Assembly: GCA_016124895.1 (NCBI GenBank)
Contig: WGMU01000105.1
Span: 1 to 64,000 of the forward strand
Direction: 5' to 3'
DNA: 64,000 bases
Source: a bacterium
Lineage (GTDB): Bacteria; Planctomycetota; Planctomycetia; Planctomycetales; Planctomycetaceae
The notes beneath the pieces are model-generated. The model worked only from the letters and a program-made list of their open reading frames with translations, ran no database searches and was not told the DNA's origin. Numbering within the stretch: the stretch's first letter is position 1; every line of letters starts with the position of its first letter. The position numbers were made by a program, and so were the translations under genes. This document shows, in pieces, positions 30,631-32,871 of the stretch.

Positions 30631-30660
30631 GGGTGCCACTGCTGGCTTGCCCAGCAGTGC
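30631..30660 (+). repeat. REP element, direct orientation (left of the transposase)
   Basis: GGGTGC precedes a perfect 9-bp stem, CACTGCTGG (30637-30645), loop CTTGC, CCAGCAGTG (30651-30659). The same GGGTGCCACTGC head and CTTGC loop recur at three other sites within 2.3 kb. It lies just after the peptidase gene and before the REP-associated transposase. Confidence 0.85.
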
Positions 30661-30720
30661 GTTCTGGACGGGGAAACCTGCAGCCTTGCTCAGCGGCATC
30701 GATTGGCGTAAGCGTCTGTC

Positions 30721-31308
30721 ATGCAGAACAGACAGGGCCATAGAAAAACCGTCCGGCATCAAGAAGAGGAACGGTGTGTCCACGAGCTGACGTTTTCGTG
30801 CTACCAGCGTCTGCCATTACTCACAGACGTTGATCGGCTGACTCTGCTCAGCGAAGCCGTCACACGAGCAACGGAGCGGCATCAGTTCGACCTGCTGGCT
30901 TTCGTCTGGATGCCGGAACACGTTCACCTGCTGGTTCTGCCACGAACGGAAGAGTCACGAATCCCGGCTCTGCTCAATGCCATCAAGCGACCGTTTTCGT
31001 ATCGAGTCAAACAGTTGCTGATCGAACAGCAAAGTTCCTTACTCGATCGTCTGATCATCCGACAACGACCCGGAGTCACCACGTTTCGATTCTGGCAGGA
31101 AGGCGGTGGCTACGACCGAAATCTCTGGACACCGAACGCCATTCTGGCGGCCATCGACTACATCCACATGAATCCTGTCCGCCGAGGCCTTGCTGAAACG
31201 ACTTTCGCTTGGAGATGGTCGAGTGCTCGTTTCTACGACGACCGCTACAAGGAAGTCGATCCAGCTCTGCCTCGGATCGACGGAGTCGACAACTCTGTTC
31301 TGGAGTGA
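30721..31308 (+). CDS. REP-associated tyrosine transposase (RAYT, TnpA_REP, Y1/HUH family)
   Basis: The product has 195 residues, the normal size. LAFVWMPEHVHLLVLP contains the HUH histidines (His67 and His69). Tyr131 (GGGYDRNLWT) and Tyr147 (DYIHMNPVRRGL) are candidates for the nucleophile; I cannot decide which by eye. The C-terminal FAWRWSSARFY is typical of the group. RAYTs are single-copy, do not mobilise themselves as insertion sequences do, and act on REP hairpins. Matching hairpins flank the gene in opposite orientations (30631-30660 and 31327-31355). No promoter was recognised. Confidence 0.9.
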   Translation: MQNRQGHRKTVRHQEEERCVHELTFSCYQRLPLLTDVDRLTLLSEAVTRATERHQFDLLAFVWMPEHVHLLVLPRTEESRIPALLNAIKRPFSYRVKQLLIEQQSSLLDRLIIRQRPGVTTFRFWQEGGGYDRNLWTPNAILAAIDYIHMNPVRRGLAETTFAWRWSSARFYDDRYKEVDPALPRIDGVDNSVLE

Positions 31309-31326
31309 TGCCCGACCCTGTTTTCG

Positions 31327-31355
31327 CACCGCTGGGCAAGCCAGCAGTGACACCC
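31327..31355 (-). repeat. REP element, inverse orientation (right of the transposase)
   Basis: CACCGCTGG (31327-31335), loop GCAAG, CCAGCAGTG (31341-31349), then ACACCC, is the inverse of the head-hairpin order at 30631. One stem position differs from the left copy, and the pair is slightly imperfect. Together with the left copy it brackets the transposase gene. Confidence 0.85.
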
Positions 31356-31384
31356 AGATCCCACCCTCAGTTCGAGAGGCAAAA

Positions 31385-32737
31385 ATGGAAGTGACTACTT
31401 TCGCCGCTGATATGTTTGACCTGTCTACGTTCGCCGAACGCTTGGAAAAGTTCATCGAAGTCGAGCACGCCTTCATCGAAGGAAGTCTGGTTGTGGCACT
31501 AAGTTCAAAGTTTGGCACCGGGAAGACGACGTTTCTGAAGATGTGGAAAGAGCGACTGGACAAAAGAGAAGACGACACGAACGGGCCATTGGTTATCGCC
31601 TTGAACGCGTGGGAAAGCGATTACTACGGAGATCCACTATTTGCCATAATCTCGGCATTAGCAGCGTCTTTGCAGAGTACCGAACAGTCGGCGGAGACCC
31701 TTATCAACGCAGCCAAGGATGTCGGATGGTTCGCGACGGCAATCGGTGGTCAGGTGGTCCGTAAGCTTACGGGGATTGATGCTGTAGCTGCTGGAGATCT
31801 TGCTGAGAAGAAGCGAGCAAAGAGAGGGGAGCCGAAACTCGCGTCGGTAGATGCGTTTTCAGTTTACGAAGGTCGGAAAGATGCGATGCGTCGTCTACAA
31901 ACATCGATAAGGGAATTTGTTGCTGCGTCGAACTCGAGGGTTTTGTTTCTTGTTGACGAACTCGATCGATGTCGACCGGATTATGCCATTACGTACCTTG
32001 AAACCATAAAACACATTTTCGATGTGAAAGGCGCAACCTTCGTTCTGGCGGCTGATCGTGATCAACTGGAGAACTCCGCAAAGACTGCATTCGGTCCAGA
32101 TCTGGATTTTGAGGAGTATTACCGCAAGTTCATTCACCGCGAGGTTTCGCTTCCGCCCATTTCAGATTCGGGCTATACGAAACTCGCTTCCAGTTATGTC
32201 ACTCGGTATCTGCAACGAGACGACGTGCGAAATTGCTTCATGAAGATAGAGAGTCACGACGTCGACAGGATCGTCGACCTCGTAGCATCAATGAAAATGA
32301 CCCCGCGACAGATCCAGGAAATGTTTCGGATTCTGGGCCATGTTTTTGAGACGGCGGAGGAAGACCGGGGGCGCCTGTTGTGGTGTATCGGCGTGGGGAC
32401 TGTCGTCATGGCAGCATTCAAAGTGGGCAATCCGAAGGTCTTTCGTCTCTTGGGGTCGCAACAGTTCGAGCCCCCGGACGCTGTCGCATTGTTGACCGAT
32501 CTCTTTGGAGACCGGCACGTTGACTGGTGGTTCACTCTTTTTCTTACAGGTAACGGACTTAAGGTCGGCGAGAACGTAACTGCACAGGAGCTAATGACGC
32601 AGGTTGGCCTTCTTCAGGATGGTCAAGAATCTGGGCGACTTGAATACATTGGACAATGGCACCAAGGTTGGGGTCATTCGACCGGGCGCTTCAAACAGAT
32701 TTATGAGAAGATCGAGTACATTGCTCAGTGGAATTAG
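31385..32737 (+). CDS. KAP-family P-loop NTPase
   Basis: I chose the ATG at 31385 with a GAGAGG site; the open frame extends 5' into the end of the transposase gene but as a shadow. The product has 450 residues. Walker A GTGKTT lies at 44-49 in the KFGTGKTTFLKMW context typical of KAP NTPases. IALNAWES, and Walker B VLFLVDELDR (Asp191, Asp194) followed by CRPDYAITYLETIKHIF, are clear KAP signatures. A mostly helical C-terminal region (about 260-450) has no membrane segment that I can see. KAP NTPases are often in defence or mobile regions; a role here is inferred from the REP-flanked position. Codon use looks less GC-rich than in neighbouring genes. Confidence 0.85.
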   Translation: MEVTTFAADMFDLSTFAERLEKFIEVEHAFIEGSLVVALSSKFGTGKTTFLKMWKERLDKREDDTNGPLVIALNAWESDYYGDPLFAIISALAASLQSTEQSAETLINAAKDVGWFATAIGGQVVRKLTGIDAVAAGDLAEKKRAKRGEPKLASVDAFSVYEGRKDAMRRLQTSIREFVAASNSRVLFLVDELDRCRPDYAITYLETIKHIFDVKGATFVLAADRDQLENSAKTAFGPDLDFEEYYRKFIHREVSLPPISDSGYTKLASSYVTRYLQRDDVRNCFMKIESHDVDRIVDLVASMKMTPRQIQEMFRILGHVFETAEEDRGRLLWCIGVGTVVMAAFKVGNPKVFRLLGSQQFEPPDAVALLTDLFGDRHVDWWFTLFLTGNGLKVGENVTAQELMTQVGLLQDGQESGRLEYIGQWHQGWGHSTGRFKQIYEKIEYIAQWN

Positions 32738-32797
32738 CTGGGTCGCCCGCTGTTGAGCCGCAAGGAAACGAGACGACTTTTTGGTAAAACAGCGGAT

Positions 32798-32871
32798 GGG
32801 TGCCACTGCCGGCTTGCCCAGCAGTGGTTGTGCAGATGGAGGCACTGCCGGGCAAGCCGGCAGTGGCACCC
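32798..32871. repeat. Inverted pair of REP elements (BIME-like)
   Basis: Unit 1 has GGGTGC at 32798-32803 and the stem CACTGCCGG-CTTGC-CCAGCAGTG at 32804-32826. Unit 2 has the stem CACTGCCGG-GCAAG-CCGGCAGTG at 32843-32865, followed by GCACCC. The two point toward each other and form one larger palindrome, the bacterial interspersed mosaic element arrangement. It closes the KAP NTPase cassette on the right. Confidence 0.85.

Follow-up and report, generated by a model that had tools for sequence, protein, structure and literature searches.

A REPtron and its cognate REPIN family next to a probably horizontally acquired KAP NTPase gene in a planctomycete genome

The locus described here is, in our judgement, probably a REPtron, i.e. 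the gene of a REP-associated tyrosine transposase (RAYT) with its inverted cognate REPs and a nearby REPIN, lying beside a separate KAP P-loop NTPase gene that was probably acquired horizontally and is probably not cargo of the transposase. It was found in a window of 64,000 nucleotides on the 83-kb contig C10 of a planctomycete genome (8.13 Mb, 195 contigs; Table 1). The family match of the RAYT, the inverted REPs on its flanks, the head-out REP pairs, the covariation of RAYT and REP, and the KAP gene's deviating composition and scattered occurrence were observed directly.

Table 1. Hairpins and genes of the REPtron region, in window coordinates
Feature	Position	Strand	Remarks
REP 1	30631-30660	+	5' flank of RAYT; head GGGTGC, stem CACTGCTGG/CCAGCAGTG, loop CTTGC
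RAYT gene, 195 aa	30721-31308	+	NF047646 and Y1_Tnp matches
REP 2	31326-31355	-	3' flank of RAYT; head GGGTGT; inverted vs REP 1
KAP P-loop NTPase gene, 450 aa	31385-32737	+	PF07693 1.7e-36; PDC-S20 1.2e-66; GC 51%
REP 3	32798-32826	+	first half of REPIN 32798-32871
REP 4	32843-32871	-	second half of REPIN 32798-32871
Gfo/Idh oxidoreductase gene, truncated, 126 aa	32947-33327	+	neighbour, outside REPtron

The first-pass annotation of this DNA had described four hairpins with a common GGGTGC head and CTTGC loop. All four were recovered, beginning at 30631, 31326, 32798 and 32843, and 0 hairpins are expected in shuffled windows (100 shuffles). Each of them folds into a 9-bp stem with the CTTGC loop on its own strand, REP 3 having a mismatch in the stem. 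The loop is thus shared by all four, and the GGGTGC head by REPs 1, 3 and 4 only, as REP 2 has GGGTGT. The transposase gene lies between inverted REPs at 30631 (+) and 31326 (-), as had been proposed, and the arms of this pair are 94% complementary (about 30631-30661 versus 31325-31355). The NTPase gene was likewise placed correctly between the 3' REP of the transposase and an inverted pair. This pair is a REPIN, in which REPs 3 and 4 are separated by a 16-nt gap and have their heads outward, and which is predicted to fold into a single long hairpin (-39.5 kcal/mol, z -9.5; DNA parameters). Rfam gave no match in the window at gathering thresholds.

We considered whether the KAP gene retains the REPIN in the role of an RNA hairpin, be it a terminator, an insulator or the 3' end of the mRNA, with the upstream REP terminating the RAYT transcript. 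Its high predicted stability with DNA parameters and its position 60 bp past the KAP stop codon would suit such a role, and passages of PMC8266576 mention regulatory roles of REPs. A role of this kind is compatible with the explanation preferred above, but we regard it as unlikely, and at most as a side effect, in view of a REP family present at 42 genomic loci. Furthermore, a head scan around the KAP genes of G019 and Desulfopila, two of the homologues described below, showed no REP-like hairpin nearby.

Judged by its sequence, the gene at 30721-31308 is a RAYT. Its product scored 88 bits against the NCBIfam model NF047646 (REP_Tyr_transpos; cut-off 80) and 26.6 bits against Y1_Tnp (cut-off 23), and its best sequence match in the PDB is TnpAREP (4er8, E 0.0016). 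It has the HUH motif as PEHVH, the motif WQEGGGYDRN, and YIHMNP, and thereby combines HUH with Y---NP. The GC content of the gene is 0.55, and the genome holds one match to the protein (E<=1e-10). An IS200/IS605 insertion sequence was rejected, since the tyrosine motif is Y---NP and not Y---Q and there is a single genomic match in place of many near-identical copies; the model transpos_IS200 gave 18.8 bits, under its cut-off of 55. Eight Y1 transposases are encoded in the genome, and in the flanks fetched this REP class accompanies only the RAYT at 30721-31308 (the flanks of one of the other seven are cut by a contig end).

A genome-wide count of the hairpin, suggested at first pass, yielded 64 copies at <=3 mismatches (26 exact) and 0 for the reversed-pattern control. 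At this threshold the copies form 42 loci, made up of 22 pairs and 20 singles. Every one of the 22 pairs with members <=300 bp apart has the +/- arrangement with heads outward; the gaps are 12-25 nt, with one of 51. These close inverted pairs are REPINs in the sense given in the relevant passages of PMC3116915. The proposal of a cognate RAYT/REP set was borne out by these numbers, together with the NF047646 match, the flanking inverted REPs and the RAYT-REP covariation reported below, and the hairpin is well supported as the cognate REP of the RAYT at 30721-31308. As a separate observation, a longer repeat shared between loci appears by eye to surround the REPIN on both sides at the G000 loci L008, L011, L015, L020, L021 and L039, and on one side only at L001 and L012. 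One of its arms has about GCAACAACTTGTTTTTC... and the end of the other is about ...TTGTTGCCGACAC, as if the REPIN at those loci were nested in a larger element.

Two features of the family count against the REPtron reading: it has a modest number of copies by the standards of REP families, and its head departs from the canonical GT[AG]G. Directly before the stem, 51 of the 64 copies read GTGC, 3 read GTGG and 1 reads GTGT, with other tetranucleotides in the remaining 9. The class does not show the GTAG or GT[AG]G at the hairpin foot by which passages of PMC3733652 delimit the GTAG-tagged REP superfamily, and it is left out of that superfamily in the strict sense.

We also determined how the copies are distributed. 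Leaving aside the two REPs of the RAYT itself, a single REP locus, the REPIN, occurs within 2 kb, against an expectation of 0.02 for any given point. Adjacent REP loci <=2.2 kb apart were observed three times in the genome against 0.46 expected, and three or more arose in 1.1% of random placements. The three are 30637/31327, 31327/32804 and one pair on C4, 399 bp apart, where a Y1 transposase was not found. As REPs of the RAYT itself take part in two of these three, the density around the transposase, a check suggested at first pass, shows a local enrichment and not a broad peak. Similarly, the REP array said to continue past the NTPase consists of the one REPIN, and the genome scan (<=3 mismatches) found no copy in the rest of the 83-kb contig.

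Among 59 genomes, the host's own included, a related RAYT is present in 35 and this REP class in 21. We fetched 29 of the RAYT loci matched in relatives and aligned their flanks. Inverted repeats clearly above shuffles were observed at 21 of the 29, namely at 18 of the 24 loci whose flanks are complete and at three of the five cut by contig ends (L060, L067, L081, L083 and L085); the heads at these three are GGGTGC, GGGTGA and GGGTGG. The eight loci without a clear flanking repeat count against the REPtron reading; L078 is borderline (29, shuffle maximum 28). By eye, a GTG[C/G] head stands at the outer end in 18 of the 21 repeat-flanked loci, the exceptions being L067 (GTGA) and L084 and L086, where the arrangement is not clear. 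The similarity of RAYT proteins tracks that of their REP hairpins, with a Mantel r of 0.65 when the entire REP is compared and 0.63 when the tetranucleotide is omitted (n=16), values that 0 of 5000 permutations reached. The set of 16 leaves aside the cut loci L081, L060 and L067, the loci with unclear ends (L076, L084 and L086) and those without a clear REP.

Individual genomes illustrate this pairing. In G040, the RAYT is flanked by this REP class, of which there are 77 genomic copies, GTGG being the commonest head among the copies listed. The RAYT of G002 is 58% identical, its REP has a different loop, and the genome has 0 copies of this REP class. Two other arrangements were seen: a distant RAYT (about 30%) at L165 (G001 C590, 2232-3414), with two REPIN-class copies <600 bp upstream, and the RAYT at L081 (G022 C131), whose flanks carry a long direct repeat (score 181, shuffle maximum 26) in addition to inverted REPs.

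By analogy with characterised TnpAREP proteins, the RAYT would bind the single-stranded REP hairpin together with its head, cleave beside the hairpin and so spread REPINs through the genome. The RAYT with its two inverted cognate REPs, accompanied by a nearby REPIN of that family, would then make up a planctomycete REPtron. The KAP gene appears to have settled in the gap between REPtron and REPIN. Since the RAYT is expected to recognise head-out units, and this gene is outside them, it would probably not be RAYT cargo.

The KAP NTPase matches PF07693 (1.7e-36) and qualifies as a match to the PADLOC model PDC-S20 (1.2e-66). Its matches to PifA and QatA are weaker than that to PDC-S20; a Qat system was rejected, as the score against QatA was 61.5 of 600 bits, far under the cut-off. 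On the strength of the model match, the protein is probably a candidate single-gene anti-phage defence of PDC-S20-like type. The name PDC-S20 was not found in the literature among the matches listed. The GC content of the gene is 0.51, and that of the neighbouring M28 and LAP genes 0.63 and 0.64. The protein matches one place in its own genome, and, the host always included, occurs in four of the 59 genomes and in two of 392 genomes of the phylum (E<=1e-40). The nearest homologues found are in G024 (70% identity), Desulfopila (64%), G019 (53%) and a Cloacimonadota MAG (49%); G024 and G019 belong to the same family as the host. More distant relatives (<60% identity) occur on 77 plasmid and 5 phage records. 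As the homologue from Desulfopila is closer than that from the same-family genome G019, the KAP gene was probably acquired by horizontal transfer.

The comparison of related genomes proposed at first pass, for presence or absence of the block, found no syntenic empty or filled site among the genomes examined; none of them has this site minus the KAP gene. Besides KAP and RAYT, none of 12 window genes was detected (E 1e-6) in six loci with KAP or RAYT homologues from five genomes. In G001 (same genus, 84% complete), which gave no KAP match, LAP, SDR and the next gene stand together, and a MobA-like gene (named by eye) adjoins LAP. The counterpart of the latter in the host is 43 kb from LAP on the same contig, at about 78.2 kb of C10. 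Its orientation there is consistent with an inversion, one end of which would fall between 33337 and 33473. The Gfo gene encodes 126 aa here and is a 365-aa ORF in G001, and its missing 3' part was not found on C10; the longer gene in G001 (L163, 840-3163) adjoins a UPF0261 gene. We also noted a second short repeat at the inversion breakpoint (33366-33421), with six further places elsewhere in the genome, three more on C10, and 17 places in G001 among the matches listed. Another dispersed repeat, at 28739-28784, has many matching places in G001 and G007.

We then examined whether the NTPase gene is itself a REP-flanked unit. REPs have polarity, and heads face outward both in the REPtron and in all 22 close pairs. 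The heads on either side of the KAP gene (31350-31355 and 32798-32803) point inward, which places the gene outside both head-out units. The suggestion that the transposase moved the NTPase as a REP-flanked unit is thus not supported. Only the outermost head-out pair, 30631/32871, encloses the KAP gene, and it does so together with the RAYT. A composite transposon of 2.24 kb, bounded by 30631 (+) and 32871 (-) and moved whole by the RAYT, would make use of this pair, whose arms are 93% complementary over 30 nt and whose heads point outward as in the 22 close pairs. We nevertheless hold such a transposon to be highly improbable. Shorter head-out pairs exist inside the outermost pair, the KAP protein is found at one genomic place only, and the RAYT of the window has no match in the 16 other fetched KAP loci (a set in which some places recur; flanks of 0.1-8 kb). 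In addition, passages of PMC8266576 describe tnpAREP genes as mostly single copy, with no evidence of mobility.

Read in the same direction, the KAP gene stands between direct REP copies (31326-31356 and 32842-32872) that are 87% identical, and its homologue in G024 has a comparable setting. There, the gene is bracketed by a 100-bp element present in two direct copies of 82% identity. Their core is the REP class of that host, which differs from that of the window, has 48 exact pattern matches, many of them in inverted pairs spaced by about 40 bp, and is found on the flanks of G024's RAYT at C31 as well. The downstream copy has a degenerate head (GGATG), and the outer ~55 bp of the element are common to the two KAP-side copies only, being absent from a third copy 3.3 kb off. 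The gaps between REP and KAP gene are alike, 29 and 60 bp in the window and 39 and 68 bp in G024. An integron cassette was rejected for G024, as inspection of its direct repeats by eye showed no attC-like ends. The recurrence in G024 counts against our best explanation, since pure chance does not readily account for it. It also keeps a weaker form of the first-pass suggestion alive: maintenance of the NTPase as a REP-flanked unit did not emerge from the data, but its homologue too is REP-bracketed.

Such bracketing could arise if REPs serve as landing sites, REP-bearing KAP DNA having entered by recombination between REPs with no role for the RAYT. For example, a circle carrying KAP and a REPIN that crossed over at the 3' REP of the RAYT would leave the direct order REP-KAP-REP. 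The direct copies and similar gaps of both loci favour this possibility, as does the insertion of IS elements in REPs reported in a section of PMC1525189. There are, against it, two cases only. Stretches of 30-100 bp are short for homologous recombination. Flank-to-flank alignment detected no repeat beyond chance at the homologues of G019 and Desulfopila (direct score 30 in the latter, shuffle maximum 29; these may be other loci than that of the window), nor at that of the Cloacimonadota MAG, where the upstream flank is only 146 bp.

We compared KAP loci with M28 loci as controls. Bracketing by REPs was observed at two of 11 planctomycete KAP places (the window and G024; 120 family genomes) and at 0 of 25 M28 loci, a difference that is not statistically secure (one-sided P about 0.09, by hand; three KAP loci and four controls are cut by contig ends). 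The REP-head scan found no bracket at the eight further planctomycete KAP loci (three of them cut), with one-sided hits at two (L150 and L152); in the controls it gave eight hits in 106 kb, with six of the 25 loci hit and none bracketed. Flank-to-flank alignment flagged one of the 25 M28 loci (L113) and one of the eight further KAP loci (L151), which we take to be artefacts because the two flanks of these cut loci overlap. A REP-bracketed defence gene was not seen in the literature among the matches listed, which is not proof of absence. The bracketing of KAP genes by REPs is thus suggestive, and entry by recombination between REPs seems to us quite unlikely.

A bolder idea follows from the observation that homologous KAP genes stand between similarly spaced direct REPs in two hosts whose REP classes and RAYTs differ. 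Planctomycete REPs might be portable docking sites for the entry and exit of single-gene defence cassettes such as KAP NTPases. We think this very unlikely; if true, REP families would provide immune genes with a grid for recombination. More broadly, the occurrence of a candidate defence gene in two genomes, each time flanked by REPs specific to the host, raises the question of whether foreign genes accumulate in REP clusters. If they do not, the locus is an ordinary one.

Our preferred reading, a REPtron beside a separate KAP gene, finds close counterparts among known systems. As in the REPtrons of TnpAREP of E. coli (PDB 4er8) and of groups 2/3 in passages of PMC8266576 and PMC2817692, the transposase is an HUH-Y1 protein with Y---NP, present as one copy of its type, with two inverted flanking REPs and the REP dispersed genome-wide. 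The differences are a REP head that is mostly GTGC versus GT[AG]G, an HUH motif of the form EHVH, and the WQ.G.G[YF]DRN motif; the set of key motifs in the protein is not matched by any row of Table 1 of PMC6006769 as printed. The pairs resemble REPINs as passages of PMC3116915 describe them, 22 of 22 being inverted with heads outward, a short gap and a long hairpin, but the family of the window is about 75 bp long and has tens of copies versus hundreds. The KAP P-loop NTPase is like the candidate defence gene PDC-S20 of PADLOC, PifA and QatA; it scores far under the QatA cut-off, and its role in defence would be that of a candidate.

R. baltica is a planctomycete. Sections of PMC3733652 report many tyrosine transposase genes with flanking repeats in R. 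baltica, and GTGG heads in O. terrae. By description, not by sequence, our locus is like these planctomycete/PVC REPtrons and TIRtrons, and we see in it an ordinary REPtron accompanied by its REPIN family, of a kind already reported there for R. baltica. The locus contributes a defined planctomycete RAYT with a cognate REPIN family whose head is GTGC, which is useful for testing the reach of the GTAG rule.
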